From IMG/VR virus record IMGVR_UViG_3300033146_004404, positions 64,001-128,000 of that record: a stretch of 64,000 nucleotides of DNA. One strand, written 5' to 3'. Shown piece after piece: positions 33,759 to 53,770 of this stretch (its first letter is position 1; every line of letters begins with the position of its first letter). Below the pieces are notes generated by a model. It made no database searches, was not told where the DNA came from, and saw nothing but the letters and a program-made list of their open reading frames with translations. The stretch comes from a virus. The position numbers and the translations under genes were made by a program.

Positions 33759-33772
33759 GTTTATCTCCAAGG

Positions 33773-33830: not shown

Positions 33831-34457
33831 TTATTTAACTAACTTTGGATAAGAGAAATGGTTAGATACAATTCTAAAGAATGCATACATCCCTTTGAAT
33901 TCTTTTATTTCTCCATAGTGCCTAAATCCTAGCCAACTGAAAGGAACTTTTGTAACAAGATCTCTAGTACTTGTTACTATTAGAATTTTCTTAAGTCTAT
34001 CTTCAAGCACCTTACTGTTTTCAGTTGTAAATACTCTAGGACAACCAAATACAATCGTGTCAGCTTCAACGCCATAATTGAAAAATATATCCTCATGTGC
34101 TAAAACTGAAAGAGCTGCTCCTTGAGAGAATCCTCTTATTTTAATTGAGTATCCGTCTTTTAAAGCTTTCTCAGCCTTCTCGTGAACCTTATCTCTCACA
34201 GAATGATACTTCTTTATGAACCCTCTGTGAACTTTGAATTTCTCTTTCATTTCTTTGTATGGCTCTTTACCAGTCCTAAAATTCTGCCACCAATCCATGA
34301 AGCTTCCACTTCCCTGAAATGAAATTGTCATACTTAATTGTCTTATATTATATACAAAATTAACTTCTGTATCTGTATCTGTATTTACATGATTCCATTG
34401 AAAGTCATGTGCGTCATCCCACGCCTCTAATAAATTTAGTTTATCTGTATAAATCAT
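33831..34457 (-). CDS. class 3 lipase-like alpha/beta hydrolase
   Basis: 208-residue hydrolase with GFSQG nucleophile elbow (Ser111), Asp166 in STRDLVTKVP and His200 in SNHFSYP, the usual Ser-Asp-His order of class 3 lipases. FGCPRV is also typical. No signal peptide. Its start overlaps the end of the KdsB-like gene by 17 bases, so it belongs to that operon. Substrate unknown; an ester on a lipid or a modified glycan is possible. Confidence 0.85.
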   Translation of the reverse strand: MIYTDKLNLLEAWDDAHDFQWNHVNTDTDTEVNFVYNIRQLSMTISFQGSGSFMDWWQNFRTGKEPYKEMKEKFKVHRGFIKKYHSVRDKVHEKAEKALKDGYSIKIRGFSQGAALSVLAHEDIFFNYGVEADTIVFGCPRVFTTENSKVLEDRLKKILIVTSTRDLVTKVPFSWLGFRHYGEIKEFKGMYAFFRIVSNHFSYPKLVK

Positions 34458-35205
34458 CAGTAACTACTCTCCTTTCTGTCACACCTATGTCATCTGGCGT
34501 ATCAATGCTAAGCCCTATATGTCTTATCTTTGCTAGATTTAAACCAAAAGGAATAAATTTGTTTTGTTCTAAACTTTCTAAATCTGCATTGATATCTTTT
34601 GCCCACAATCTCTTACCGTACTTATTAAAAATCTCCTTTGGAAATATAAAGAGACCTATGTGTCTCTTATAACTTGAGAGTGGATGTTTCATTCCACTCT
34701 TACTGGCAGGTATTACTGCCCTTGACGTATAAAGAACTCTTTTGTTCTTATCTACAATCTTACAAGTATTTATACTATCTATATCTTTATAGTCATAAAA
34801 TTTGCTAAACAACGTAGTGATCATATCAGTTGGATGATTCTTCACCTTCTTCCAAACTTTATTAACTTCTTCTGGATCTATTGACGGCTCATCAATAGGC
34901 AGCGAAATATATGTATTATATCCCTTTAGATTTTCTGCCTTACTTGCATAATAAACCCTCTCTGTTCCACATGTCATCTCACTTGATGTTAATACAAATT
35001 CAACTTCTTCTCTTTCACAAATTTCAATTACTCTTTGATCTTCTTTATCACTTGTAACTGCTATCTTACTAGCGAAACTAAACTTCTTTGCTATTCTTAT
35101 AGAGGTTTCTAATAGAGTTCTCCTTCTATAAATTGCTAATGCTTTCTCTGGAAATCTTGTACTATCTAATCTAAACGGAATTATAACACATACTGAATTA
35201 CTCAT
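34441..35205 (-). CDS. kdsB: KdsB-like CMP-sugar synthetase
   Basis: 254-residue cytidylyltransferase of the CMP-KDO synthetase family. IPFRLDSTRFPEKAL at 9-22, CGTERVYYA, the VLYTSRAVIP and KRHIGLFIFP segments and a final GLSIDTPDD are family hallmarks, and length is normal. KdsB activates KDO-type acids with CTP for LPS or capsule assembly. In a phage it may feed surface-glycan alteration or a modified sugar. Neighbours are a radical SAM enzyme, an aminotransferase and a lipase, so its real substrate may be an amino-sugar acid. Confidence 0.9.
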   Translation of the reverse strand: MSNSVCVIIPFRLDSTRFPEKALAIYRRRTLLETSIRIAKKFSFASKIAVTSDKEDQRVIEICEREEVEFVLTSSEMTCGTERVYYASKAENLKGYNTYISLPIDEPSIDPEEVNKVWKKVKNHPTDMITTLFSKFYDYKDIDSINTCKIVDKNKRVLYTSRAVIPASKSGMKHPLSSYKRHIGLFIFPKEIFNKYGKRLWAKDINADLESLEQNKFIPFGLNLAKIRHIGLSIDTPDDIGVTERRVVTDDLYR

Positions 35206-35208
35206 CTC

Positions 35209-36111
35209 CTACATCCTTTCATAGTTTGTTGAAGTAAGGCCAAGCCTTTTCTTCTTTTCATACTTACTATTATATATGATAACACTTTCATCATTATCAT
35301 ATAACTGATCACATTTACCACAAAGTAAATTCATGTAAGCTCCACTATGAAAACTCTCTATCTCTTTCATCATTTTACTCTCAAAAACCTCTTCTATAGT
35401 TTGACTTTTCAGGTCGCCAAGTAACAACAAACCATTAAAATCAAAACAACACATGTTAATTGTACCATCAACCTGTATCTGCAATGGCCCATTTTTCGGG
35501 CGCCCGCACGTAGTTTTGGTTGTGGCTCCTTTTCTATATGTCTTCCAAGAACTCCAGTTATGAACCTTCCACACTTCAATTAAATCAACGTAGCTCTTGA
35601 AGTATTTTTCTAAGAGCTTTGCTTTGTATAGATCAGGTTCTATTTGATCTGCTGTAAGTATAAACTTCGTATTCTTTCTCTTAGATCCAAAGTTAGTAAT
35701 GAACTGAAATGCATTCAAGTAACTTTTTTGACTTGATCCTGTTATTTCTACATACTCCTCAACACCTATGTAATGAAAGGAAACTCTAACACTTTCTATA
35801 TCAGCTTCAATTAATTGTTCTACCATCTCTTCTGTTATGCAAGAACCATTAGTAAGAATATTTACTTTGTAGCCATTCTCTTGAAGTATTTTAATCTTAT
35901 CGAAGATGTCAATATCTAGGAACGGCTCTCCCATTCCTGATAGAGTAACTGTTTCTATTTGAAGAGGAAGTTTAAACACTAACTCCTCAAATATTTCATT
36001 AGACATCATAGTTCGACCTCTCTTAAAACCTGATGTGTTTAAAGGACAAAAAATACAATTGTGATTACATACAGTACTTATTTCTATCCTTGCTTCTTTT
36101 GAAGTTGTCAA
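35209..36111 (-). CDS. radical SAM enzyme A with SPASM-like C-terminus
   Basis: Radical SAM enzyme with cluster motif CNHNCIFC at residues 15-22 of the 300-residue form, a GMGEP motif and C-terminal Cys residues (CGRP, CCFDFN, CGKC) of a SPASM-type domain. TTG at 36111 is chosen as start, 7 bases after AGGAG, overlapping the aminotransferase stop (TTGA); a longer reading from a TTG at 36183 would overlap 76 bases. It belongs to the aminotransferase-KdsB-lipase operon rather than the main cluster. Substrate unknown. Confidence 0.93.
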   Translation of the reverse strand: MTTSKEARIEISTVCNHNCIFCPLNTSGFKRGRTMMSNEIFEELVFKLPLQIETVTLSGMGEPFLDIDIFDKIKILQENGYKVNILTNGSCITEEMVEQLIEADIESVRVSFHYIGVEEYVEITGSSQKSYLNAFQFITNFGSKRKNTKFILTADQIEPDLYKAKLLEKYFKSYVDLIEVWKVHNWSSWKTYRKGATTKTTCGRPKNGPLQIQVDGTINMCCFDFNGLLLLGDLKSQTIEEVFESKMMKEIESFHSGAYMNLLCGKCDQLYDNDESVIIYNSKYEKKKRLGLTSTNYERM

Positions 36112-37133
36112 TTCATTACTCCTGTCACTACATGTATTACCTGTCTCATATAACAATCTAACCCTATTGATACACGGATCCAATCTTTCATTATATCACA
36201 ATCAAACTCTGTCCTGATAGCTATCAGATAATTCTCAAGCAACTCTTTTCTTATTATCTCTTTGTTCTCTTCTCCAACTTTAAGTAATACAAAATTGGCA
36301 TAAGTAACTCTAGCATAATCAAGTTTTTTAAACTCTCTTCTCCATTCATTTACTTGGTGAAGATTATAAGTACAGTCTCCACCAAAACGTATTTCGTTGA
36401 TTACAGCTTCACTACAAGCAACTGAGTTCACTTCTTGCATCGGTCTATACTGTCTTAATAAATCAATATTTTCTTTACTTGATCTTATACAACCGAGCCT
36501 TATGCCGGCTAGGCCATGGCTCTTTGAGAAGGAATTTATTAATACAACATTCTCTTCAAGAGTTTGATTCATGTAGTGAAGAAAATTAACACCTAGGTCA
36601 GACCAAAGATAATAGTCATAGTAAGTTAAATCTAATACTAATGTCACATTGTTTTCTTTAGCTGCTTGATAAACAGGATAAAACTCTTTAAGCGTTGGCA
36701 TGAATCCTGTTGGATTGTCTGGCAATATTAATAAACAAAACGCTAGCTCGTCACTATATTTCTCAATGTGATCTACAAGAAGCTCTGCATAAGATTCCTT
36801 ATTAAGGTCTTCATCATATCTAATCTTAATAGGAAGTATATTAAACTCGTCTTCAAATACCTCAAGCATACCAAATGAAGGAAACATCCTTAACACTTTA
36901 CTTTTATTTGCTGAAGTAAAGGTTCTATAACAATTTCTTAATGCTTCTTCAGCTCCTCTAGTTAATAAGAGATTATCTTTTCTGCAATTGTACTTATCTG
37001 TTAACGTTTTATACATAGGATAAGTATAAGGATAATCCTTATATGGTCCATACGGAGCTTGGTTGTTATCGAGTCGAACAATTTCTTCTTCAATTAATTT
37101 ATCTTTTTTTACGATAGGTCTTTCTATATTCAT
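36108..37133 (-). CDS. HisC-like PLP aminotransferase
   Basis: Fold-type I aminotransferase (class I/II, histidinol-phosphate aminotransferase-like), 341 residues. LPDNPTG with Asn140, LDLTYYDYY with Asp168, SFSKSHGLAGIRLGC with PLP-lysine Lys204 and Arg212. Downstream genes are radical SAM A, KdsB and lipase, suggesting a small-molecule pathway. A conserved promoter sits so close that the transcript would begin almost at the ATG, implying a leaderless or nearly leaderless message, or use of read-through transcripts. Confidence 0.9.
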   Translation of the reverse strand: MNIERPIVKKDKLIEEEIVRLDNNQAPYGPYKDYPYTYPMYKTLTDKYNCRKDNLLLTRGAEEALRNCYRTFTSANKSKVLRMFPSFGMLEVFEDEFNILPIKIRYDEDLNKESYAELLVDHIEKYSDELAFCLLILPDNPTGFMPTLKEFYPVYQAAKENNVTLVLDLTYYDYYLWSDLGVNFLHYMNQTLEENVVLINSFSKSHGLAGIRLGCIRSSKENIDLLRQYRPMQEVNSVACSEAVINEIRFGGDCTYNLHQVNEWRREFKKLDYARVTYANFVLLKVGEENKEIIRKELLENYLIAIRTEFDCDIMKDWIRVSIGLDCYMRQVIHVVTGVMN

Positions 37134-37138
37134 TCTTA

Positions 37139-37167
37139 ATTATACCACATTATTCTTTTTTTGTCAA
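37139..37167 (-). promoter_or_regulatory. sigma70-like promoter, copy 3 of 4
   Basis: Minus strand: TTGACA (overlapping the stop codon of radical SAM B), spacer AAAAAAGAATAATGTGG, TATAAT. The -10 box ends only 6 bases before the aminotransferase ATG. Spacer identical to copy 1. It splits the radical SAM region into two transcription units. Confidence 0.93.
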
Positions 37168-37916
37168 GGTTTTTTAAAACCAGCAAGATCTCCACGAACA
37201 TCACATTTAGAACAATGTGAATTTTCTCTTCCATTCTCTCTAAACTTTCTCATGTTTTCACCATACCAAATATCAATAATACTTTCTTTATTTGTATCGC
37301 CAATAATTCCTTCTTTGTTGAAATCTTGGCAGCACGGCATAACCCTTCCGTCATAATCAACTGTCATAGAATAATGAGGATACATACATTCTGTCTTTAA
37401 TGGGAGATCTTCTTTAGTTTCATAAACTCCACCTCTGTTATTTAAAAACTCTAAATTACTGAACCTATCTATCACCTGAACTTGAGATGAGAAGCCATCC
37501 CACTTATCATACATTTCTAAAGAATAAGCTGATACTCTAATTGAATCAACAAAGTCATTAGTTGCTGATCTTTCTGTTAATAACAATCCATTTGTATTAA
37601 CTATTATATAACTCTTTGGTAGAAGCATTCTTGCTGTGATTATCATTCCTTTAAAGTCAGGATGCAATAATGGTTCTGAGAATCCTGAGAATACTATCAT
37701 CCCATTATAATTTCTATCTGTGTCATGAACTTCATATAATATCTTATGAAACAATTCCATGTCTAAGTAAGCTCTTCTCGGAATAAAATTTCTGTTCCCT
37801 GTTGGACAGAACTCACACTTCATGTTGCAGTAATTAGTTAGAGAAAACTCTAACATCCTGAATAAACTACTTTCTACTTCTATTATTTCTTTTCTACTTT
37901 CAAAACTATTTATCAT
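37164..37916 (-). CDS. radical SAM/SPASM enzyme B
   Basis: 250-residue radical SAM protein. CNMKCEFC at 30-37 binds the SAM cluster; MIVFSGFSEPL replaces the usual GGEP; a C-terminal CMYP...CCQDF...CSKC pattern is SPASM-like. It is the last gene of the large cluster; its stop codon lies inside promoter copy 3. A repeat element separates it from enzyme C. Closest general relatives are peptide- or protein-modifying SPASM enzymes. Substrate unknown. Confidence 0.93.
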   Translation of the reverse strand: MINSFESRKEIIEVESSLFRMLEFSLTNYCNMKCEFCPTGNRNFIPRRAYLDMELFHKILYEVHDTDRNYNGMIVFSGFSEPLLHPDFKGMIITARMLLPKSYIIVNTNGLLLTERSATNDFVDSIRVSAYSLEMYDKWDGFSSQVQVIDRFSNLEFLNNRGGVYETKEDLPLKTECMYPHYSMTVDYDGRVMPCCQDFNKEGIIGDTNKESIIDIWYGENMRKFRENGRENSHCSKCDVRGDLAGFKKP

Positions 37917-37925
37917 CAGAATTTC

Positions 37926-37994
37926 CTACTTAGTAGAAATCTCCGATTTCTACTATATTATTAATGAGAACTACAGTTCTCTTTAGTCAGAAAT
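37926..37994. repeat. dispersed structured repeat, copy A
   Basis: 69-base element also found in inverted orientation at 63822-63889. It holds an 11-bp hairpin (TAGTAGAAATC / GATTTCTACTA, loop TCC at 37942-37944) and a second inverted repeat GAGAACT-AC-AGTTCTC (37966-37981). It covers the last codons of radical SAM C, encoding LTKENCSSH. Hairpin 1 differs from copy B by paired changes that keep the stem. Confidence 0.85.
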
Positions 37995-39007
37995 ATTTTT
38001 CTCTTTTCAAGATATTTATAAATCTCTTTATATATATGACAGGTGATCTTATCGTCTATTCCATACTCACCATTTTTATTATAATAGAACGCAGAACATC
38101 CAAAGTTGCATATATCTTTAGCATAACAGGTATCACATCCTATTGCTTTAACATACTCGTTCTTCTTTTCTATAAGAGAAATATATTTCTGAATTTGTTT
38201 CAGTTCAAGAAAATCTTTTCCTGTCTTGATTGGTATTGGTATATCATAGTTAGGACATAATGTTTCAGTGCCATCAGGTTCAATAGATATCATTGACATC
38301 CCAGCACCACAGAACATTGTATCACATGTACTCTTATTATTTGTTTTTCCATTTATTATATCATCAAATAATTCATAGATCTCAACGAAAGATGTATAGC
38401 CAGTATTGATATACTCATTTAAGAATAATTCATATGCCTTCTCAAACAAATTATCTATATAATCATTGGCTATAAAATTTACACAGTTCGCACCAAGTTG
38501 AGTTATTCCCTTTAGCTCATTAATGTTATCGTCATTGATTACAGTAGAGATAGTATAGTTGATATTGTATTTCTTTAATAGCTCAATTTTATCTAGGATA
38601 ACAGAGTTCTTTACTTCTCTACTTCTCTCATTACTTGGGCCATCATAGCTTACACCTAATGATACATTAAACCTAGAGAGTAGAACAGCCATTTCCTCAT
38701 CAATCAATACAGTGTTAGTCTGTAGATTAACTGAGTGGTTTATGTCAGTTAAAGTATTCTCTATATAGAGTAGGATCCTAGACAGCAGATTACTTCCAAT
38801 CATTAATGGCTCGCCGCCGAATAATGTAATGAAGATTCTGTCTGTTCTACTGTTCTTTATATAGTCAGCGTGAAGATGATCTATTGTGTTTTTTAATATA
38901 GGGAAAGTAATAGTCTCTTTGCTCTTATGTTTTTGGTAACAATAAGAGCAATTGAGATTGCATTGATTGGTTAGTCTAATTGTAAGTTGCTTTACTTGAC
39001 TAAACAC
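37961..39007 (-). CDS. radical SAM/SPASM enzyme C
   Basis: 348 residues, anaerobic sulfatase-maturase-like layout. CNLNCSYC at 16-23, GGEP motif, then FCGAGMSMISIEPDGT and CDTCYAKDICNFGCSAF as SPASM cysteines binding auxiliary clusters. Enzymes E and G share this C-terminal pattern (CDTCYA..IC..GC.AF), so the three are paralogues. The last residues come from the dispersed repeat. It follows the 734-residue gene with a short overlap. Confidence 0.96.
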   Translation of the reverse strand: MFSQVKQLTIRLTNQCNLNCSYCYQKHKSKETITFPILKNTIDHLHADYIKNSRTDRIFITLFGGEPLMIGSNLLSRILLYIENTLTDINHSVNLQTNTVLIDEEMAVLLSRFNVSLGVSYDGPSNERSREVKNSVILDKIELLKKYNINYTISTVINDDNINELKGITQLGANCVNFIANDYIDNLFEKAYELFLNEYINTGYTSFVEIYELFDDIINGKTNNKSTCDTMFCGAGMSMISIEPDGTETLCPNYDIPIPIKTGKDFLELKQIQKYISLIEKKNEYVKAIGCDTCYAKDICNFGCSAFYYNKNGEYGIDDKITCHIYKEIYKYLEKRKIFLTKENCSSH

Positions 39008-41211
39008 TAGTAAAGGAAAGTAGGTTTTATAACATAGTCTACCTGTTTCTCCAGTAAAGGATTATAAAATTTATTCTTCTTATTTATATGCCTATCAAAT
39101 GTATTGCGTGGCATATTCCAATATCCTTTTATATAATCTCTTGTGACATTCCTTGTTGTTATAGAATCATAAGATATTTTATTTTCCATACTAGAAAACA
39201 TTGCAGAGTTAGCTAAGACTAACATTTCATCTATTATATCCATCACGCCTCCTGAGCCTATGTCTAAATCAACATACACTCGTGTTGCGCTTAGAGATTC
39301 ATTTATAATAATTGTTAACAAGTCCTTTACTTCTTCGTCTTCATTATAACTAAAGAACATATAATAATTATGTATCTTAGATAAGTCTTCTGATACTTTA
39401 GAGAACATTTGATTATTTAATTTATATACATTCTTCTTGTATAAGTAAAAGATCTCGTCTCTATATCTATCTATTAAGTCTTTCATGTTCCATTTATTGT
39501 TATCTATATTATATCGTATTTTAAGATTATTCTTGACAGAGATTAATGAAAGTACTCTAACATATAACATATTAGTAGGTTGTTTTTTTAAAAGAAAGTG
39601 TTCTATTCTTTTTTCAAGGTTCTCTATCAACTGCTCTATAAATAAATTGTTCTTAATCCAATGAGTTTCTATTGTTAAGTATCTTGTAAGAGTATAGGAT
39701 CTCGTAACAATCTTTATGTTATCGTATTCCATCCCTAAAAACTTATTCTTTTCTATTGTGTCTTTATTATAATTCTCAGCTTTAAGAGTTATATTAAAAG
39801 GCTCATAGAAAGTATTAATACTTTCTATAGCAAAGTATTTTTTAAAAGAATCTATATTATCTAACTTGAGATCTTTCTCTATTGCATCTAGTGATGCATT
39901 CTCTATACAAAACTTTTTGAATGTTTCATTGAGCTTCTTTTTTTCTTTACTTATATCTCTAAAAATAAAGAACTTCTCATATAACTTCAATGACAACTTA
40001 ATAAATAAATCAAGATGTGAATACTGAAAAGCTAGTACATAGACTTCATCTAATAATTCCCAGATGCCTTCATTGTAAGAATTAACTTTCATTGTTTTAA
40101 AAGCAACAACAAATAACTTAGAAACTAAATCTTTATTGTGTATATTTTCTTTTATTAGAACAAGTAACCTACTATAGAACTTAAGATCGCTTCTCCCTGA
40201 GAATATAAAGCATGTTTCAAAAATTTTTCTGTTATCAGCATCAAATAATTCCAGATAATCTTCTAATGAATAGAAGCTCTCTACAACAGTTTCATTGATC
40301 TGGACACAATCTTCAATTAACTCCTCAAAGTCTTGTGAGCGGCTCTTAACGTCGTACTCCTGATACTTAAAGAACTCTTTATAATCTTTTAACGTTTCTA
40401 CAGAAGACTTCTTTTTAACCTCATTAGTGTATTCTTTATTGTATTTATTAAACTCTCCTATTAAGTATTGAGCTTCAAAATAATTGTCACCTGTTATAAT
40501 ATACTTAATGTCTTTAGTCCAATCTATAAAGTTCTTTTCACCTGTTTTTATTTCTATTAAGTCTTCTTGTACAGGATCTAACCTTATCTCTTCATTCTCT
40601 ATATAATACAATGCGTCATTGTTATAGCTAGAGTCTATGAATGTAAAGTTTGTAATGCCTTTAAGAAACTCTGTGAACTTAGAGTTGTTTGATATACTCA
40701 TTCCTGGATCAAGAAGCTCTTCTATCTTTTTCTTAGCTATATATAAAATAGAGCTTATTATACTTTCATTTGTTATATATTCTTCTCTACTTTGTAATTC
40801 CTTTATTCTCTTAGCAGCCAACGAGATAATAGATTGATCATTATCTACAGTTATATAGTTACTGTACTTTGAAAGAAAAAGAACTATGTTTTCACTATAG
40901 TTCTCTGTTACAACCATCTCTTCATTGTAATATAAATTAAAGAGTTCTCTTAACAAGAAGAATGTTTCATCTAAAATAAAAGACTCATTATCTCCTACTC
41001 TTTTACACGCTACCTTATTTAATCCTGAGATATTACAACAATTCAATGATAATATATTATCATTCACTTTGACATCAAAGTAATTAGCAGGATAAATATA
41101 TATTTCTTCTGTCTCATTTACTGCTTTGATATACTTATCACGACAGCAATAGAAATACTCTATGTTATTTATTAACTCTGCTGACTTATTGCTATAGATA
41201 TACTTAATCAT
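39007..41211 (-). CDS. unknown 734-aa protein in radical SAM cluster
   Basis: Unrecognised. Mostly helical with a beta-rich N-terminal 80 residues; no signal peptide, membrane helix or known catalytic motif. Its start overlaps enzyme D by 8 bases and its end touches enzyme C, so it is translated as part of the cluster. Being conserved within this operon suggests a substrate-binding, scaffold or partner role in modification. RiPP-recognition-like features were not evident by eye. Confidence 0.8.
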   Translation of the reverse strand: MIKYIYSNKSAELINNIEYFYCCRDKYIKAVNETEEIYIYPANYFDVKVNDNILSLNCCNISGLNKVACKRVGDNESFILDETFFLLRELFNLYYNEEMVVTENYSENIVLFLSKYSNYITVDNDQSIISLAAKRIKELQSREEYITNESIISSILYIAKKKIEELLDPGMSISNNSKFTEFLKGITNFTFIDSSYNNDALYYIENEEIRLDPVQEDLIEIKTGEKNFIDWTKDIKYIITGDNYFEAQYLIGEFNKYNKEYTNEVKKKSSVETLKDYKEFFKYQEYDVKSRSQDFEELIEDCVQINETVVESFYSLEDYLELFDADNRKIFETCFIFSGRSDLKFYSRLLVLIKENIHNKDLVSKLFVVAFKTMKVNSYNEGIWELLDEVYVLAFQYSHLDLFIKLSLKLYEKFFIFRDISKEKKKLNETFKKFCIENASLDAIEKDLKLDNIDSFKKYFAIESINTFYEPFNITLKAENYNKDTIEKNKFLGMEYDNIKIVTRSYTLTRYLTIETHWIKNNLFIEQLIENLEKRIEHFLLKKQPTNMLYVRVLSLISVKNNLKIRYNIDNNKWNMKDLIDRYRDEIFYLYKKNVYKLNNQMFSKVSEDLSKIHNYYMFFSYNEDEEVKDLLTIIINESLSATRVYVDLDIGSGGVMDIIDEMLVLANSAMFSSMENKISYDSITTRNVTRDYIKGYWNMPRNTFDRHINKKNKFYNPLLEKQVDYVIKPTFLY

Positions 41212-42187
41212 TGATCCCTATCGCTTCCTCGCTCAAATCGTAAAAGGCCAAACACGGCCCGTGACATAGCCCTTCTTTATTAAATCTACATACTTTACAT
41301 TCTTCTGGTAATTCTACTGTAGATTCCAGTATGTCATATCTCAGTTTTAATTCACTTGCTGCTGTTTCATAATTAGTATACTTATTAAGGTTTATACTTA
41401 TAGATTCTTTCAAAGGATATCCATGTGATAAAGTCATATTAGGAAATAAGTCTGCAGGTGCTCCATCACATATAGATCTTGGATTAAAAAACTTATTTAA
41501 GAACTTATAGTCTTCTCTTGAAAACATACACGGAAAAATTATACAATCTACTGATATAGGAGCCTTTATAGACATAGACTTCATTGCCATAGCTACAAAC
41601 TTCTTCCCTAACTCTTTATTGTTTATTACATAGAAATCCCCTTTGTCTTTTTGAGCACCAGGAAAATTTATACTTAGTCTCATTCTTTCTATTGCTACAA
41701 GATTCTCTATAAGGTAATCATAATAAGTCATGTAGTATTCTATAGACCTATTGTTGTCAAATGTTATACCACATGACATAGTGTCTTCCTTTCCTAATTT
41801 ATAAAGAAGTGAATAAATCATATTATAGTTCCTCTTGAACTTCTCCATTCTGTTCTTCTCATCTAACTCTGTGCTGTTAATAAGGAATCCTATGTGAACT
41901 TTACTTCGTATCAAAACTTCCATTAATCCTTTCAATACTTCTTCAGTAAATAGAAAGTTAGATATTATAACAAATTCTCTGTTTTGATCTACAAGATAAT
42001 TAATGAACTTTAAAAACTCAGGATGTATAGTAGGCTCACCACCAATTAATTTAATTACTTGATCAGTTTTAGAGACTATGTCTTTCAAGGTATCAAATGT
42101 CATTACATCTTTGCTCTCTGCTCTAAATTTAGATGCAAAACAATATGAACATCCTTTATTACATGATGGCGTTAATACTAAATTCAT
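41204..42187 (-). CDS. radical SAM enzyme D
   Basis: 327 residues. CNKGCSYC at 9-16 starts almost at the N-terminus, LIGGEPT follows at about 47, and the C-terminus carries CKVCRFNKEGLCHGPC, a shorter cysteine set than the full SPASM of C, E and G. Coupled on both sides: ATGA overlap with E and 8-base overlap with the 734-residue gene. Differs from the other seven enough to suggest a separate reaction or a helper role. Confidence 0.94.
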   Translation of the reverse strand: MNLVLTPSCNKGCSYCFASKFRAESKDVMTFDTLKDIVSKTDQVIKLIGGEPTIHPEFLKFINYLVDQNREFVIISNFLFTEEVLKGLMEVLIRSKVHIGFLINSTELDEKNRMEKFKRNYNMIYSLLYKLGKEDTMSCGITFDNNRSIEYYMTYYDYLIENLVAIERMRLSINFPGAQKDKGDFYVINNKELGKKFVAMAMKSMSIKAPISVDCIIFPCMFSREDYKFLNKFFNPRSICDGAPADLFPNMTLSHGYPLKESISINLNKYTNYETAASELKLRYDILESTVELPEECKVCRFNKEGLCHGPCLAFYDLSEEAIGIND

Positions 42188-43446
42188 TTTTTCTCCATTA
42201 TAATTTGATTATCAACAATACTTAAAACACGCCCTTGATTCTCTATATATCTAGCAAGTGATGAATTTTTGTTTATATGATAGATAGTTCCACCAAATTC
42301 TATTTTTCTGTATTTCTTTATATACGTATCTATTATTTTTCTCTCGCTCTTTAATAAATACTTATAAAGATTCTTATAGATAGGACAAACTAATTCTGTT
42401 CTTATCCCTGTTTTACCTGTTTTGCTAAATTTAAATGCCATACATCCATGATCACATATTTTATCTGCATAACATGTATCACATTCATTCTCTATGACAT
42501 GTTTGTGTTTGTCGTATACAAAGTCTGTATATCTCTTTATGTGCTGCAAGTCAAGAAAATCATTGTCATCTATATGCCCAACATAAGCTTCTTTGAAATC
42601 CTCACTCCATCTTCCACAAATATGAAACTTACCATCAGGGCTCATTTCTATTACTCTAACTCCACCGCCACATATCTTCTCCCCACAGTTAGAATGATAG
42701 TCTAAATCACATAAAGATAACCTTGTAATAAGAAACTTCTTTATGAGTCTATCAACATTAGTGTCGTTAAACACTCCAGTTTGTATATAACTGTCTATCG
42801 CTGGCTTTAAAGAATATAAGAAGAAATCATACCCGCTTACCTCACCCCCAATGTTATTGACGTCTTCGGCGTAATTAACCTTAAGGGGCATGTTGTATTT
42901 CTCTTTGATATACTCTATGCTCTCATTGATATTGTCTATGTTGTGTTCTCCTAATACCATTATCAATCCAAAGCTTATATTATAAGCTTTTAGCATATCA
43001 AACTTAACTTCCATTGTATTCTCTAAAAACTTTCCTCTAGCGTCGTTGCCACCTTCTATTCCATCAAAGGATGCTCCTACCCCTACGCTGTAACGTGCGA
43101 ATAGGGCACATAGCTCTTCTGTGAGTAAGGTTAGGTTGGTCTGCATGTCAGTTACTATACTAAGGTGATATCTCTTATTAGTATAGTCTATATATTTGAA
43201 CATCTTGGCTAATAACGGAAGCTCTAAGAGCAATGGTTCACCGCCGTGTAGTGTGATAGAGAATCGACTGTTGTGCTTTCCAATTACTGTTAGATCCTTA
43301 GCGATCTTATCAACAGCTTTTTTGAACATATCTAGTGAAATTCTTTCACCTTTAAAAGAGTCTTTATTTTTTATATAACAATACTCACACCTTAAGTTAC
43401 AATCTCTTGTTGTCTTTAGAATAAGTTGATTAGCATTTTGAAACAT
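42184..43446 (-). CDS. radical SAM/SPASM enzyme E
   Basis: 420 residues. CNLRCEYC at 16-23, HGGEPLLL, then CGEKICGGGVRVIEMSPDG and CDTCYADKICDHGCMAF typical of SPASM domains. Paralogue of C and G, with an additional C-terminal stretch of about 70 residues. Lies between a CxxC mini-protein (upstream) and enzyme D, coupled by ATGA. Likely modifies a peptide or protein substrate in the cytoplasm. Confidence 0.96.
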   Translation of the reverse strand: MFQNANQLILKTTRDCNLRCEYCYIKNKDSFKGERISLDMFKKAVDKIAKDLTVIGKHNSRFSITLHGGEPLLLELPLLAKMFKYIDYTNKRYHLSIVTDMQTNLTLLTEELCALFARYSVGVGASFDGIEGGNDARGKFLENTMEVKFDMLKAYNISFGLIMVLGEHNIDNINESIEYIKEKYNMPLKVNYAEDVNNIGGEVSGYDFFLYSLKPAIDSYIQTGVFNDTNVDRLIKKFLITRLSLCDLDYHSNCGEKICGGGVRVIEMSPDGKFHICGRWSEDFKEAYVGHIDDNDFLDLQHIKRYTDFVYDKHKHVIENECDTCYADKICDHGCMAFKFSKTGKTGIRTELVCPIYKNLYKYLLKSERKIIDTYIKKYRKIEFGGTIYHINKNSSLARYIENQGRVLSIVDNQIIMEKK

Positions 43447-43449
43447 AGA

Positions 43450-43653
43450 TTAACTCTTATTCATATTGAAGTCAATAGCTTTAACAAATTTATTAAAACA
43501 TTCTTGGCAGACTACTTCTTTGGTTTCCATTGACATGTTACCTATAGATTCCCAAGTTTCAATACTTGTTTCACGTTCAGCTTCTATTTTAAAGCCTATA
43601 AATAATTTTAATTCTTTGATTTTTTTGTTGCATCTTGTACATTCATTTATCAT
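43450..43653 (-). CDS. CxxC-CxxC mini-protein, copy 1
   Basis: 67 residues with Cys5, Cys8, Cys49 and Cys52 forming two CxxC pairs 41 residues apart, followed by a helical tail. A 65-residue relative lies at 46204-46401, and a third copy is the C-terminus of radical SAM H. Its ATG overlaps the stop of enzyme F (ATGA). It probably binds zinc or iron. It may be an accessory or carrier protein for the radical SAM enzymes, or itself a substrate. Confidence 0.85.
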   Translation of the reverse strand: MINECTRCNKKIKELKLFIGFKIEAERETSIETWESIGNMSMETKEVVCQECFNKFVKAIDFNMNKS

Positions 43654-44738
43654 TCTGTTATCTCCTTAGCGATATCTGTTAATAGTAATGAGATTTTACA
43701 TAAATTAGGATTAAGCTCTTCCAGACTGTTTGTATGTTGTTCATGCCCTGCAACGCATCCACCATTACACCAATAAGCAGCTTTACAATTTTCACAATCT
43801 TTATTTACTTTAAATTTATTAAAATCTGTTCTAGCTTTCATTACATCAAAGAAAGAATTATTAGTATATCCATTGAAGATATCTCCATAGAAATAATTAA
43901 AGTCTTTAGGGGCTTCTTCAAGATAAGAAAACATTTGATGACAAAATATCAATTGACCATTAGGGGAAATGGACACATTGCTTTGTGGGGTAAAACAAAA
44001 GTGATTGGAATCATTATCTTTATTTAAAGTTCTTAGAAGACCATTGAATAGTGGCTGCTTCTTAACTTTGAATAAATAGATCATTTGGTTATATAAAGAT
44101 TCTATCATTTCATCTGTAATCTCCATAGAGAAATTGAATTGTATATTTGGATGCAATCCTATTTTTACTAAGAAGTCATAACTATCAGCAAAGTCTTTAT
44201 AGTTATTCTCATGAACTACGAATAGTCCTGCTACTTGCTTATTGTATTGATGTGATTTAGACATCAGCTCAGGTAATCTTTTCATAGTGTCATTCCAAGA
44301 ACCACTCTTATCTATTTTATATCTATTCCTGTCATGAACTTCTCTTTTACCATCTAAAGATACACCTACTTGTATATTGTTTTCTATTAAGAAATCTATA
44401 TCTTTAGAATCAAAGAGAGTGAGATTAGTATTAAGATGAAGACGAAAGTCTATATTAGTTTTCTTTAACTCTTCTATAAGGCTAGTAACAAAAGTCCAAT
44501 TGACTGAAGGTTCTCCGCCGAATAGAGAGATCTCTATTTGTTCATCTGCTTTAGTTATTTCTATAAATTTTATAAGGTCAGGTATCATTTCTATTTGCAT
44601 GGAAGTATTAGCTTTTTTATCTGTTACTTTAGATCTGTCACAGTAGTGGTCGTCATAGCAATACTTGCACCTTAGATTACATTCTTCTGTTATTATCAAT
44701 TCGTAATAGTTAAGGCTTACTTCTTCTGGTATAAACAT
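43650..44738 (-). CDS. radical SAM/SPASM enzyme F
   Basis: 362 residues. CNLRCKYC at 20-27, FGGEPSVNW, and a C-terminal CFTPQSN..SPNGQLIFC and CENCKAAYWCNGGCVAG SPASM set. Its layout resembles peptide-maturase SPASM enzymes of RiPP systems more than its neighbours. It sits directly downstream of the probable substrate region (233- and 249-residue genes) and upstream of mini-protein copy 1. Confidence 0.95.
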   Translation of the reverse strand: MFIPEEVSLNYYELIITEECNLRCKYCYDDHYCDRSKVTDKKANTSMQIEMIPDLIKFIEITKADEQIEISLFGGEPSVNWTFVTSLIEELKKTNIDFRLHLNTNLTLFDSKDIDFLIENNIQVGVSLDGKREVHDRNRYKIDKSGSWNDTMKRLPELMSKSHQYNKQVAGLFVVHENNYKDFADSYDFLVKIGLHPNIQFNFSMEITDEMIESLYNQMIYLFKVKKQPLFNGLLRTLNKDNDSNHFCFTPQSNVSISPNGQLIFCHQMFSYLEEAPKDFNYFYGDIFNGYTNNSFFDVMKARTDFNKFKVNKDCENCKAAYWCNGGCVAGHEQHTNSLEELNPNLCKISLLLTDIAKEITE

Positions 44739-44749
44739 TTATTATCCTT

Positions 44750-45499
44750 TTAAAGAGACAATAAGTCCTTTAACTCTTTTATTTCATTTAAGTATAAAGC
44801 TTTTGCCTCTTCACTGAAAGTGTTGTCGATTGAATATGAGAAACAATTAGTACAGTCAGCTCCGTGAAGAGTATTGAAGTTGTAACAAGTTCCACATTCT
44901 TTATTATTTATGCCTTGGAAGTTATCATAAAGAATCATATCAGGTAATAATATAATCTCTGGAACTACCTGTAATAGATAAGGAGTAAGTAATTCAAAGT
45001 CTTCTGGAAATTCTTCTTCTTTGTATTCTAACACTTTATTTAAATATTCTTTGAATAATTCAAGGTCTTCAATATTGTATGATTGAAGTTCTTCTATGAA
45101 ATCTTTTTTGTAATGAACTACATACTCTACATTATCTATAGAAGATTTAATGTCAAGGAATGTTCTCCACTCCTCTATATATAATTCTATTACTATTTTA
45201 CTTATAGAGTCTTTTAATTTACTGTAGTTTAATTCAACTGCTTGATTATTAAAATCTTTTTCTTTTATTCTAACAATAGAATCTCTCATATTGATGAATG
45301 AAAGAGATGATTTACTGTTTAGGTTAAGGACTATTCTGTTGTTTGCAGAATGTATTGAGAAAGCAGAGAGTAATTTTTCATAGTCAAATAAGTGTTCTCC
45401 GTAGAATAAAAGTTCTTCTTGATTGTTCTTGAGAAACTCTTTTAATGTTTCACTGAAGTTTACTTCTTGATCGTTCGTCTTAGGTAATATTATTAACAT
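44750..45499 (-). CDS. unknown protein with C-terminal CxxC...CxxC, 249 aa
   Basis: Unrecognised, mostly helical and acidic. CGTC (202-205) and CTNC (216-219), 10 residues apart, likely bind a metal or iron-sulfur cluster. It lies between the triplet-rich 233-residue gene and enzyme F, with 3- and 11-base gaps. May be a partner, clusters donor or chaperone in the modification pathway; no known family. Confidence 0.8.
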   Translation of the reverse strand: MLIILPKTNDQEVNFSETLKEFLKNNQEELLFYGEHLFDYEKLLSAFSIHSANNRIVLNLNSKSSLSFINMRDSIVRIKEKDFNNQAVELNYSKLKDSISKIVIELYIEEWRTFLDIKSSIDNVEYVVHYKKDFIEELQSYNIEDLELFKEYLNKVLEYKEEEFPEDFELLTPYLLQVVPEIILLPDMILYDNFQGINNKECGTCYNFNTLHGADCTNCFSYSIDNTFSEEAKALYLNEIKELKDLLSL

Positions 45500-45502
45500 G
45501 TC

Positions 45503-46204
45503 TTAACCGTTTGAATAATTAACATGATTAGAATGGCTAGCGTGAGTTGCATTAGTCCCACTAAACGTATTCGTATAAGCATGCCAAGCAGTAATATCTT
45601 TTGTCCTTAATTCACTAACAGCTGAAGCTAATCCTTCTAATTCTTGCTTATCTATCTTATTAGCATTTTCTTCCTTCGCTTCATTAATTAAAGTAGGGTT
45701 ACCTAATTGTCCTAATAGATCATTGAACTGCGCTCCTAGATTTTTTACTTTATAAGCAGTAGCTAATTCATCGTCATCAAAAGTTAAAGCTGATGCAGCG
45801 AGAGTAACTCCATCTCCCTTCTGCGAAATTAAAGTATTTAAATTAGTTTGAACTTCTTCTAGCATATCACCTAAATTGTATCCTACCTTTTCACTATCTA
45901 ATACTTTAACAGAACCATTATCGTCGTCATCCCAATATGTCCAATTAAAATCTGTTTGTGCTAGTGCTCCACTTGTTATAGAATAACTTTTATGATTAGA
46001 GTAGCTATAATGTATAGCACAGTCATCGATATTATTTATGTAAATAACGTGATTGTAATGACTGTTATCGCTGTACCCTATTCTCCAGCAGTTATTGTCA
46101 TAATCTGTATAATCTGTATATGAATATTTATAACAGTATAAAGAGTTAGTATGAGTTCTACTATCACTTCCTTGTGCATAATTAAAGTATTCACTATATC
46201 CCAT
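45503..46204 (-). CDS. triplet-rich protein, candidate radical SAM substrate
   Basis: 233 residues from ATG 46204 (AAGGAAG upstream; overlaps the mini-protein stop by one base). Residues 1-93 are very rich in Tyr, Asn, Asp, His and Ser; a helical middle (100-205) follows, then a tail of tandem triplets HAS-HSN-HVN-YSN at 221-232. Aromatic-x-Asn/Asp/Ser triplets occur about 15 times, including YTD-YTD-YDN at 29-37. Cyclophane-forming radical SAM enzymes act on such motifs. A plain phage fibre with triplet repeats is the main alternative. Confidence 0.75.
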   Translation of the reverse strand: MGYSEYFNYAQGSDSRTHTNSLYCYKYSYTDYTDYDNNCWRIGYSDNSHYNHVIYINNIDDCAIHYSYSNHKSYSITSGALAQTDFNWTYWDDDDNGSVKVLDSEKVGYNLGDMLEEVQTNLNTLISQKGDGVTLAASALTFDDDELATAYKVKNLGAQFNDLLGQLGNPTLINEAKEENANKIDKQELEGLASAVSELRTKDITAWHAYTNTFSGTNATHASHSNHVNYSNG

Positions 46205-46401
46205 TATTCTTCCTTTGTATTCATATTGATAAAACATTCTTGAAACTTATCAAAGCAGCTAGAACAAACATTCTCATGGTCTAATACTGTGTTCTTAGAT
46301 ATCGCTTTAGATTTATCTAATATTATCTTTTCAGTTTCTATTTCTAACTCCATTTTTATACTAAAATCTTTTATTTCTTTATTGCATATGTCACATATCA
46401 C
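46204..46401 (-). CDS. CxxC-CxxC mini-protein, copy 2
   Basis: 65 residues with Cys3, Cys6, Cys46 and Cys49; pair spacing 40, against 41 in the relative at 43450-43653 and 41 in radical SAM H. Start is GTG at 46401 with GGAG upstream, inside the end of enzyme G. Its end touches the start of the triplet-rich gene. Likely metal-binding accessory protein. Confidence 0.8.
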   Translation of the reverse strand: MICDICNKEIKDFSIKMELEIETEKIILDKSKAISKNTVLDHENVCSSCFDKFQECFINMNTKEE

Positions 46402-47635
46402 TACTTATCTCCAATGAATTCATCGTCGCACTTATTTTATTCTTAATGTTAAACTTCTTCAAACTCTTTATCTTATCATTAGATAGAACTTTAAAGTTAT
46501 TATCAACGCATGACTGTAATATAGAGTCTAAATTCTTTAGTATATAAGAATAAAAGCTCTTGTAATATCCACATATTAAGACTTGATCTATTCCATGTTT
46601 TTTGTGTTTAGAATAATAAAATGCGTCACATCCATGTGAACAAATATAACTCGCATAACATGTATCACATCCTGTTTCTTTATATGTCTTATCAGTAATC
46701 TTTCCTTTTTCTATAACTTTCTTTAATTGATATAATCCAAGGAAATCATAATCTAATGCATTCATCATATAAATTTCAGGAAAGCTTTCGCTGTGTCTAT
46801 CACAGTAATTAATTGTTCCGTTAGGTTCAATTCCTATCATAGATATGCCTGTGCCACACCATCTACTATCACATCCAGACTTTGAAGTTGTTTCATGTTC
46901 TGTTAATATATCTATTAGAGTTGACATAAGTAATGCTTGTATAGAACTATCTTTTGGCTTAATTCCTTCTATAAGATTATCTATTTCAGGCTTAGCTACT
47001 AATTCAAAAAACTCTTTTCCTGTTAGCTCAATCTTACTCTCTGCGTCTATCATCTCTTCTACAAAGTTTATCTTGTAGCTTCCTGATATTTTATCCATAT
47101 ATCTTTTCGTTGTTTCTATCTTATCGACATTGTCTTTAGTAGCAATTCCTATAAATCCAAAGTCTACTTTGCTATCTTCTAATAAGGTAAACTTCTCTTC
47201 GAAGAATTCTTGAGAAAAACTACATCTAGCGTTATTAGCTCCATCTATTCCATCAAATGATACTCCTATCTTCACATCAAATTTCTGTAATACTTTAGCT
47301 ATATCATCTGTTAATAATGTTATATTTGATTGACAACCAAAATTATAATTAAGATTGTTCTTGTCAAATACATTCTTCGCATAGTCTAATCTTTTATATA
47401 ACTCTTTTTCTCCTAGTAATAAAACTTCACCGCCGTGGAGAATGAAAGATAATTCTTCATTCTCTTTGCCGCTTACTACTCTCTGCTCTGCTATTCTATC
47501 TGTAATCTTTCTATATAATTCAAAGGATATAAGTTTCCCTTTATCTTCTTCTTTGTCCTTCATAAAACAATAAGAACAATTAAGATTACAATCTTTTGTC
47601 ATCCTGAATATTATTAAGTTAGTAAATCTAAACAT
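46391..47635 (-). CDS. radical SAM/SPASM enzyme G
   Basis: 414 residues, paralogue of C and E. CNLNCSYC at 16-23; the usual GGEP is HGGEV here; C-terminal CGTGISMIGIEPNGT and CDTCYASYICSHGCDAF. The SAM-site proline is often conserved, so this variant is worth noting, though activity is still likely. The start overlaps the end of enzyme H by 8 bases. Confidence 0.95.
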   Translation of the reverse strand: MFRFTNLIIFRMTKDCNLNCSYCFMKDKEEDKGKLISFELYRKITDRIAEQRVVSGKENEELSFILHGGEVLLLGEKELYKRLDYAKNVFDKNNLNYNFGCQSNITLLTDDIAKVLQKFDVKIGVSFDGIDGANNARCSFSQEFFEEKFTLLEDSKVDFGFIGIATKDNVDKIETTKRYMDKISGSYKINFVEEMIDAESKIELTGKEFFELVAKPEIDNLIEGIKPKDSSIQALLMSTLIDILTEHETTSKSGCDSRWCGTGISMIGIEPNGTINYCDRHSESFPEIYMMNALDYDFLGLYQLKKVIEKGKITDKTYKETGCDTCYASYICSHGCDAFYYSKHKKHGIDQVLICGYYKSFYSYILKNLDSILQSCVDNNFKVLSNDKIKSLKKFNIKNKISATMNSLEISSDM

Positions 47636-48755
47636 ATATTTCCTTCACTTTTTCTAATGACTTGTAAAAGTTTTTAGCGCACTCTATACATAAATTTTCT
47701 TTAGAACTCACGTCCCAATTAGGAATGTATTCCCAATCCCATTCATTTCTTAGTCTATGCACTTCCATAGAGAAATTAATATTAGTTTGTATGTCTTCTA
47801 TTTCACTGTGACATTTAGTACAAGTCTTTTTATTTGCACTCTTTATAGGATATAAGTCTAACTTTTTAAAGTATTCAGCGTATTCTTTCCATACTCCAGC
47901 ACATCTATCATTAAATAAACATTCTATGCACTTATTAGACTTTACTTTCTCATTTAAATCATTAGAATTATAATCCTCACATATTCCATCAGCATCAAAA
48001 TTACCATTTCCTTTATTAGCAGGATCAAATCCTTTTCTATCACAACTATTCAATAAAACACTCATGTCTGAGTTTAGTACAATGTCTTGATAAGGATATA
48101 AATAACATATAGGTATTGCTTCAGTCTGGATTAAGTGAGCATAGTTCTTCAAGATGTCTTTGAGAATCGGTTCTAGCTCAGTTAACGAGCATAATACCAT
48201 ATCTCTATTATTCCATGCTTCTCCATTAGGATGAGGGTAAGTCATATTCATTTTTATCCCAGGAGATATTTTCTGTATGTAATCATAAGTCTCTTTTAAA
48301 TAAGGAGCATTCAATCTACTAATAACAGTCTGTGTAGTGCAATCAACATTATACTTCAACAGATTAATAAATCCCTTAATCGTTTTTATCCACATTCCTT
48401 CTTGTCTTACAATCTTATCATGGACATCTTCTCTATGAGAATGTATCGCTATCAATACAGAATCGAGATATTCACTACACTCTTTGGTGAATTGTTCGTT
48501 ATGGAACATAGCACCATTAGTCTGTAAGGAAGTCTTGTGTCCTGTATCTTTAGCGTATTTAAGAAGCTCTATAAAATCTTTTCTTATAGTTGCTTCTCCA
48601 CCTGTAAACCCTACAGAATTATCCAAAGGGATCTTATCTATAACTCTCTTAACTTCATCTGTAGTTAAATCATTTGTATCTCTCTTGTCCGCTACTACAC
48701 AGTGGATACAATCGTTATTACACTTGAATCCTACTTTTAAATCAAATCTACTCAT
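47628..48755 (-). CDS. radical SAM enzyme H fused to CxxC-CxxC domain
   Basis: 375 residues. CNNDCIHC at 12-19, FTGGEATIR, internal cysteines (CEDYN, CIECLFNDRC) and then a C-terminal module with Cys312, Cys315, Cys356 and Cys359. That module matches the free mini-proteins in cysteine spacing and in the following FYKSL-type helix. The fusion indicates the mini-proteins work with radical SAM enzymes. First enzyme of the cluster, directly downstream of a fibre-tip-like gene. Confidence 0.94.
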   Translation of the reverse strand: MSRFDLKVGFKCNNDCIHCVVADKRDTNDLTTDEVKRVIDKIPLDNSVGFTGGEATIRKDFIELLKYAKDTGHKTSLQTNGAMFHNEQFTKECSEYLDSVLIAIHSHREDVHDKIVRQEGMWIKTIKGFINLLKYNVDCTTQTVISRLNAPYLKETYDYIQKISPGIKMNMTYPHPNGEAWNNRDMVLCSLTELEPILKDILKNYAHLIQTEAIPICYLYPYQDIVLNSDMSVLLNSCDRKGFDPANKGNGNFDADGICEDYNSNDLNEKVKSNKCIECLFNDRCAGVWKEYAEYFKKLDLYPIKSANKKTCTKCHSEIEDIQTNINFSMEVHRLRNEWDWEYIPNWDVSSKENLCIECAKNFYKSLEKVKEIYV

Positions 48756-48762
48756 AACCTAT

Positions 48763-49233
48763 TTATGTCATCATAATGAACATCGCAATCCGCTGCTCGC
48801 TTTTATCAAATTTACTAACAAGCGCTTTTCCCACCACTCGCCCAAAACCTATGTCATACCACCGTTTAACGGTGCATAGACCGTTCTTGCCTGCGATAAG
48901 GAGATCTCCTACTTTACAAGGTTCTGCTATCCTTACATTTACTCTACCTGCTAGCCCTATAGGAACCTTGTGACTCATATTGTCACTGCCTAGTACCATA
49001 CCATAGGTGTCACTATAGACACCTATAACTTTCCTATCTCCACGCTTAGTGCAACGTGTAGCGCCATTTGCGCCTTGAACGATGACATCGCCTGGAATCA
49101 TCAATCGATTATCGAGATTGACTGGAAAGAATTCAGCATAATCATTCCACATCGCACCATAAACTCTATTAGCGGTTAGAGCACCACCTACAATCAAATT
49201 ACCATAAACTGAACTATTACCTAAGACAGCCAT
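48763..49233 (-). CDS. fibre-tip protein, peptidase G2-like
   Basis: 156-residue protein with WNDYAEFFP and a following beta-rich segment (PGDVIV...GVYSDTYG...KVPIGLAGRV) that resembles the peptidase G2/IMC-type C-terminal domain of phage fibres and side tails. Its base composition is more GC-rich than its neighbours, suggesting separate acquisition. Lies between LamG fibre genes and the radical SAM cluster. Confidence 0.6.
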   Translation of the reverse strand: MAVLGNSSVYGNLIVGGALTANRVYGAMWNDYAEFFPVNLDNRLMIPGDVIVQGANGATRCTKRGDRKVIGVYSDTYGMVLGSDNMSHKVPIGLAGRVNVRIAEPCKVGDLLIAGKNGLCTVKRWYDIGFGRVVGKALVSKFDKSEQRIAMFIMMT

Positions 49234-53763: not shown

Positions 53764-53770
53764 TCATCCT

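Follow-up and report, generated by a model that had tools for sequence, protein, structure and literature searches.

A radical SAM gene cassette in a phage tail operon and its candidate repeat-protein substrate

Genes of the tail-fibre region

The window analysed here is a stretch of 64,000 nucleotides, namely bases 64001-128000 of the virus record IMGVR_UViG_3300033146_004404 (201,184 bp in total). It contains a cluster of eight genes for radical S-adenosylmethionine (rSAM) enzymes, all on the minus strand and inside a tail-fibre region; two further rSAM genes are located in the record far from this cluster. Since a tail sheath and a baseplate wedge protein are both encoded in the record, it was assigned to a contractile-tailed phage. 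The search with the tail sheath gave distant relatives only. Six of the eight genes, mostly of the peptide-maturase type, form block A (37961-48755) together with two small proteins with paired CxxC motifs (2xCxxC proteins) and a Tyr/His-rich protein of 233 residues, the candidate substrate. The genes of block A and the fibre genes upstream of it are as follows; in the text, genes are named by their lower coordinate.

49235-55195, minus strand: two LamG-domain fibre genes and a fibre protein, upstream (library matches)
48763-49233, minus strand: fibre C-terminal domain, Peptidase_G2-like, directly upstream of block A (PF11962, E value 7.5e-9)
47628-48755, minus strand: HxsC-like rSAM enzyme with a C-terminal 2xCxxC domain (TIGR03977, E value 2.4e-30, below cut-off)
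46391-47635, minus strand: rSAM/SPASM enzyme, PapB/sulfatase-maturase-like (NF047865, TIGR03942 and, over cut-off, TIGR04085)
46204-46401, minus strand: small 2xCxxC protein, its stop overlapping the start of the candidate substrate (from the sequence)
45503-46204, minus strand: proposed substrate, 233 residues (Tyr/His/Asn-rich terminal arrays, place inside block A)
44750-45499, minus strand: protein of 249 residues with a C-terminal Cys motif, family not recognised
43650-44738, minus strand: rSAM/SPASM enzyme, best match PapB ranthipeptide maturase (NF047865, E value 5.7e-43, below cut-off)
43450-43653, minus strand: small 2xCxxC protein (from the sequence)
42184-43446, minus strand: rSAM/SPASM enzyme, PapB-like (NF047865)
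41204-42187, minus strand: rSAM enzyme of a cassette-specific family, matching no model well
39007-41211, minus strand: accessory protein of 734 residues, probably mostly helical (low-confidence fold prediction)
37961-39007, minus strand: rSAM/SPASM enzyme, PapB-like, last gene of block A (NF047865)

The overlaps between genes reported in the initial annotation are real: from the LamG fibre gene 49235 through the rSAM gene 37961, neighbours on the minus strand are spaced by -11 to +11 bp, and the Peptidase_G2-like fibre end precedes the first rSAM gene by 7 bp. All eight rSAM open reading frames (35209, 37164, 37961, 41204, 42184, 43650, 46391 and 47628) were found with an intact CxxxCxxC motif (CNHNCIFC, CNMKCEFC, CNLNCSYC, CNKGCSYC, CNLRCEYC, CNLRCKYC, CNLNCSYC and CNNDCIHC), and each exceeded the PF04055 cut-off in the profile check. 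SPASM cysteines had been ascribed to most of them, which is loosely right. The PF13186 cut-off was passed only by 35209 and 37164, with the matches of 42184 and 43650 below it; 46391 passed the SPASM model TIGR04085, and C-terminal Cys clusters are visible in the sequences of others. The initial annotation overlooked the repeat protein 45503-46204 and the 2xCxxC proteins (43450-43653, 46204-46401 and the C-terminus of 47628); the latter three represent one common domain.

Peptide-maturase models were the best or second-best match for five of the six rSAM enzymes of block A. For four of them, the highest-scoring models are those of PapB-type ranthipeptide maturases, sulfatase maturases and cyclophane enzymes; 47628 matches HxsC. 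The 734-residue protein gave an uninformative AlphaFold model (mean predicted local distance difference test score, pLDDT, 36.7) and, as query in the viral-contig scan, no relatives by sequence; it has two relatives in the phage locus L032 described below. For the 249-residue protein, a relative was not found among the compared loci.

The repeat protein and its recurrence

The candidate substrate begins with an array rich in Tyr, His, Asn, Ser, Asp and Cys (MGYSEYFNYA...YTDYTDYDNN...YSNHKSYS), followed by a middle part predicted with low confidence to be helical and by the C-terminal array THASHSNHVNYSNG. Its likely start is the ATG at 46204, which is preceded by AAAGGAAG and overlaps the stop of the upstream 2xCxxC gene (TAATG). 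At the DNA level there is almost no tandem repeat and the codons are mixed, so the array pattern is kept at the protein level. The protein contains 18 triads of the form [YHW]-x-[NDS] compared to 9.6 expected after shuffling of the whole sequence (7/5000). A search of viral contigs and cultured phages with the protein as query returned no relatives by sequence. Its counterpart in L032 starts and ends in a similar way (M[GA]Y at the start), running from M-A-Y to YTNHANYANTI, compared with MGYSEYF and SHSNHVNYSNG in the window.

Four further phage records contain the cassette. In every one a distinct repeat protein is encoded among or beside the rSAM genes, and fibre genes lie nearby in most of them. 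Recurrence in related phages had been named as a check by the initial annotation, and it is borne out. L032, from a 179-kb phage record, was found by a scan with the PapB-like alignment. It comprises a fibre gene with a G2-like end, two relatives of the 734-residue protein, an HxsC-like enzyme, a PapB-like enzyme (43%), the repeat protein, a 2xCxxC protein, a second PapB-like enzyme and a member of the 41204 family. Searching with the HxsC-like and 41204 families yielded L075 and L079/L081 in addition and recovered the record G009 (L068 and L074). Matches from human-faecal "phage" records (MT83...) were set aside, as those inspected look like bacterial loci.

Cassette genes are about 28-46% identical between the phages. 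Identities amount to 43% for 43650 (L032:9129-10199), 42% for 42184 (L032:11360-12688), 44% for 41204 (L032:13323-14306) and 44% for 46391 (L068:8010-9275). Homologues of 47628 are present in all five cassette-bearing records, and the 41204 family occurred in the viral-contig scan in three records only, each with the cassette. The repeat proteins are 220-340 residues long, several with arrays at both ends. The triad [Tyr/His/Trp]-x-[Asn/Asp/Ser] is repeated in tandem in them; examples are HDSHSSHSSHSDHSSHNSHSNHAN (L068) and MGYVNYANYSN (L079).

This motif was counted in a set of five phage proteins and the bacterial L083 protein, with local shuffling within 15-residue blocks as control. The set contains 121 triads (of 177 Tyr, His or Trp residues) against 66.8 ± 5.75 expected (0/2000). 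Asn, Asp or Ser stands at +2 of 62 of the 67 His residues, and offsets +1 and +3 are mostly at or below chance. The repeat proteins of other phage rSAM locus types (L024, L021 and L074) showed 65 triads versus 58.6 expected, that is, chance, and an i+2 motif common to all phage repeat proteins was therefore rejected. L074, the second cassette of G009, has a Cys-repeat protein in place of the triad array. Given that HxsC-like genes are present there as well, the split follows the type of array and not strictly the HxsC-like enzyme.

At L024 (5458-6968 and 11419-12880), two fibre genes with G2-like ends flank a pair of rSAM genes and, around these, four paralogous His/Tyr/Asn-rich repeat proteins. 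The motif of these proteins differs: in two of them, Asn/Asp is enriched at +1. A profile built from the four proteins detected none of the other candidate substrates and no common leader domain, although by eye a helical motif can be seen to recur.

Arrays near rSAM genes were also found more widely. A low-complexity protein rich in aromatic residues or Cys is encoded near the rSAM gene, on the same strand, in 33 of 79 non-redundant viral rSAM loci, and the density of such proteins is 90.9 per million residues within 3 kb of an rSAM gene versus 18.9 beyond 4 kb (4.8 times). The array types include CSGCSGC, CTCDCNY, H-T-D, Trp-rich and HSNC. Relatives of the window's G2-like fibre end are present in 12 of these 79 loci, 62 to 7475 bp from the rSAM gene, and L028:6979-8334 is a tail-fibre-like sequence with CxxxC repeats at its C-terminus and an rSAM gene nearby. 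As a separate observation, a Cys-repeat protein in L011 (4405-5520) runs into a Hint domain (PF05203 over cut-off), which suggests autoprocessing after the array.

A compact version is found in cultured Thermus phages. Cumys and phiMa encode His-x-Asp array proteins of 343 and 342 residues, respectively, directly before an rSAM gene. In Cumys, the array gene lies one small open reading frame after the tail collar fiber gene; all 54 of its His residues have Asp, Asn or Ser at +2, and 62 triads were counted versus 26.4. PhiLo has an rSAM enzyme of the Cumys/phiMa family (57%) and a separate His-x-Asp protein of about 474 residues on the opposite strand. The rSAM enzymes of L195, Cumys and phiLo themselves terminate in a His-x-Asp array of this kind (short in Cumys and phiLo).

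Proposed cross-linking and related systems

Block A is judged fairly likely to be a maturation cassette, situated in the tail operon, that radically cross-links the tail-associated repeat protein 45503-46204. The assignment of this protein as substrate of the block A enzymes is made with good confidence, and it is quite probable that the repeat protein of the cassette is a virion part, in line with the neighbourhood of fibre genes and the fusion of an array to a fibre-like protein. The context is well supported, and within it we infer the substrate, the bond type, the presence in the virion and the benefit.

In the proposed course of events, the phage would make a tail-associated protein whose termini carry arrays with abundant Tyr, His and Asn/Asp/Ser. 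One HxsC-like, four PapB-like SPASM and one cassette-specific rSAM enzyme would cross-link side chains along these arrays, presumably helped by the small 2xCxxC proteins. The likeliest chemistry would be a series of three-residue cyclophanes, each joining the aromatic ring of residue i to the β-carbon of Asn, Asp or Ser at i+2, with thioethers perhaps added at Cys. A tail or fibre component would thereby acquire a terminus that is stiff and resists proteases.

By analogy, three-residue cyclophanes as the bond type are rated slightly better than an even bet. Enzymes of this kind join an aromatic residue to the β-carbon at i+2 (PMC11002830), with the pairs Trp/Phe to Asn/Asp/Ser, Tyr to Asp and His to Ala (PMC11002830). 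The bacterial HxsC-like relative L102 has two telling neighbours: a YhhB-like enzyme that scores 436.4 bits against a cut-off of 445, and a cyclophane precursor that passes the YhhA cut-off. Because of this known i+2 chemistry and the neighbours of L102, multi-site cyclophane formation is regarded as the best reading. The cassette would work like the cyclophane systems and is not placed among them, as its enzymes score below the curated cut-offs.

The closest described systems are those of the triceptide enzymes (XncB, OscB, MscB, YxdB, HaaB and YhhB; PMC11002830), in which an rSAM-SPASM enzyme likewise lies beside a substrate with motifs of the aromatic-x-Asn/Asp/Ser type. The window's enzymes have the CxxxCxxC core and conserved C-terminal Cys, with the Pfam SPASM cut-off unreached in most, and an adjacent protein with aromatic-x-(Asn/Asp/Ser) motifs is present, a correspondence that is partly post hoc and weak in the held-out screen described below. 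None of these enzymes scored above the cut-off of the YhhB, FxsB, XyeB or GrrM model. In contrast to triceptides, the genes are located in a phage tail operon, the protein is long with arrays at both ends, there are extra enzymes and 2xCxxC proteins, export genes were undetected and scores stay under the family cut-offs.

The His-Xaa-Ser (Hxs) system shares the combination of HxsC-like and SPASM enzymes, and the L068 protein has HxS repeats with weak matches to HxsA4 and HxsA. It differs in that every match here is below cut-off (105.5 of 267.9 bits for HxsC; no HxsA in the window, and 34.6 of 55 bits for HxsA4 in L068), in the other array types and in the tail context. For four enzymes of block A, the PapB ranthipeptide maturases rank first or second among the models, but scores reach at most 147.4 of 340 bits and the candidate substrate of the window is not Cys-centred. 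The Cumys/phiMa module resembles the cassette in having its rSAM gene directly after the His-x-Asp repeat gene, itself after tail genes, and differs from it in containing one rSAM enzyme and a DUF483 protein. Its published account suggested DNA modification, and the parts of it available for comparison do not discuss the repeat array (PMC11437467).

Several observations weigh against the cross-linking proposal. No enzyme reaches the curated cut-off for a named maturase family, the scores being far below, and the bond type is therefore an extrapolation. The repeat proteins barely align with one another and match no known family except for the weak HxsA matches in L068. The candidate of the window is the weakest case of its set, with 18 triads versus 11.8 expected after local shuffling (17/2000), and its AlphaFold model is uninformative (mean pLDDT 31.5). 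The shuffle tests are partly post hoc, since the motif was recognised while reading the same loci. A strict screen of 28 held-out bacterial HxsC-like loci matched one locus (L096, two proteins), and the same screen of 49 viral loci without the module gave one match. Finally, His/Asp arrays could bind metal unmodified. The two L096 proteins (453-1950, from an Eremiobacterota metagenome-assembled genome) have Trp/His-x-Asn/Asp arrays, and their locus has an HxsC-like rSAM gene.

According to the initial annotation, a multi-step radical pathway encoded among fibre genes alters a protein. This idea gained support from the candidate substrate in the operon, the recurrence and the fusion of a tail-fibre-like protein with repeats. 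A host-surface protein as target found none, the best candidate being the phage's own repeat protein. The claim that no phage system of this size had been described did not hold either: the Campylobacter phages CP220 and CPt10 encode 11 and 12 rSAM proteins, five of them in one module (PMC2853527), and another report describes the Thermus "rSAM module" (PMC11437467). CP220 was rejected as an equivalent system, as the stretches examined yielded no triad array and the neighbours are amidinotransferase and sugar-transferase domains. Two Cys-rich repeat proteins were seen in CP220 (L162:16839-17210 and L163:6705-7130; 15 Cys in 45 residues). Full-text literature searches, which left most subscription papers and bioRxiv preprints uncovered, yielded no account of phage tail proteins being modified by rSAM enzymes.

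The chances appear about equal for and against a wider generalisation, according to which tail-operon rSAM cassettes in several unrelated tailed-phage groups cross-link arrays of their own tail proteins at many positions and harden the virion covalently, each array type (His-x-Asp, Tyr/His-x-Asn/Ser, Trp-rich or CxxxC) with its own enzymes. If true, natural-product chemistry would have been turned structural, with radical enzymes stapling a virion part after translation, and many phage rSAM genes so far read as metabolic or DNA-modifying would share an explanation. Enzymes usually studied on short peptides would have very large repetitive substrates, and the question would arise how such fibres engage hosts. 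The idea is testable, as the cultured Thermus phages with the compact version grow on T. thermophilus HB8.

Alternative readings and the sugar-type neighbour

Next to block A lies block B (33831-37916), which comprises two rSAM genes most like tungsten-cofactor maturases, a KdsB-like gene, a HisC-like aminotransferase and a lipase. The initial annotation had placed all eight rSAM enzymes in one pathway and overlooked the CMP-Kdo-synthetase-like and aminotransferase genes among the last of them. A common pathway is supported for the six of block A; 35209 and 37164 go with the KdsB-like gene and the aminotransferase and likely belong to a sugar block. The genes concerned and the fibre gene downstream are:

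37164-37916, minus strand: rSAM/SPASM enzyme, tungsten-cofactor-maturase-like, probably outside peptide maturation (profile matches)
36108-37133, minus strand: HisC-like pyridoxal-phosphate aminotransferase, with a relative in L032 (profile matches)
35209-36111, minus strand: rSAM/SPASM enzyme, start corrected to TTG 36111 (profile matches)
34441-35205, minus strand: KdsB-like CMP-Kdo synthetase (profile matches)
30984-33770, minus strand: downstream tail fibre protein (phrog_24210, tail fiber)

The start of 35209, previously given as 36183, is probably misplaced: the TTG at 36111 overlaps the stop of the aminotransferase gene (TTGA) and gives a protein of 300 residues. This enzyme is 44% identical to L064:13094-14002, which also adjoins KdsB. 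Given that KdsB-/KdsA-like genes accompany the cassette in L032/L064 and L081, block B can be considered a recurring yet probably separate sugar-type companion, which probably makes a Kdo-like sugar product of its own. Its counterparts (L064:13094-14729, L032:14308-20192 and L081:1-1407) contain KdsA/KdsB-like, aminotransferase, carbamoyltransferase-like (by eye) and rSAM genes. The two blocks are separated by a perfect 11-bp inverted repeat (palindrome) at 37931-37955. A sigma-70-like promoter (37167-37139, minus strand; 12/12, TG before the -10 element) 5 bp ahead of the aminotransferase start would yield a leaderless transcript of block B.

These genes are the basis of an unlikely alternative, in which most of the rSAM enzymes build a sugar or nucleotide modification, with the CP220 cluster and its nucleotidyl-sugar transferase domains as the parallel. 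Besides the KdsB-like, aminotransferase and two rSAM genes of block B, the KdsA/KdsB-like genes with the cassette in two other phages, the occurrence of such genes in the CP220 cluster and the DNA modification suggested for the Thermus module (PMC11437467) are in its favour. However, the block A enzymes match peptide maturases, repeat proteins lie within or beside the cassettes, and in the 15.9-kb locus of L075 the cassette core is present but sugar genes were not seen.

A similarly unlikely explanation is a diffusible ribosomally synthesised and post-translationally modified peptide (RiPP), secreted as a bacteriocin or superinfection-exclusion factor, with the tail location being incidental. 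The enzymes do resemble RiPP maturases, and bacterial relatives adjoin ordinary RiPP precursors. Against this, no C39 peptidase was found in the five cassette records (which may be fragments), and the only ABC-ATPase matches there are weak and all outside the cassette. Moreover, proteins of 220-340 residues, several arrayed at both ends, are not short core peptides, fibre genes are nearby and the L028 repeats end a tail-fibre-like protein.

It is improbable that the His/Tyr/Asp arrays hold metal ions directly in the fibre while the rSAM enzymes act on something else. Many of the arrays are rich in His and Asp, and HxH metal sites occur in some phage tail fibres. However, in many phages the array genes have rSAM genes close by, Trp-rich arrays and those rich in Tyr and Asn coordinate metals poorly, and the rSAM enzymes of L195, Cumys and phiLo themselves end in a His-x-Asp array. 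A decayed or accidental accumulation of rSAM genes with no joint function, as the four PapB-like paralogues might suggest by duplication, is highly improbable in view of eight intact, overlapping genes with all motif cysteines and a gene set kept at roughly 28-46% identity in other phages.

Two further features of the minus strand were noticed in the window. A protein of 2468 residues with leucine-rich, BspA-like repeats (by eye; 23576-30982) adjoins the downstream tail fibre gene and is a possible receptor-binding protein. The large subunit of ribonucleotide reductase is encoded at 58837-62658, and the middle of this frame also matches HNH endonuclease families, which suggests an intein-like insert.

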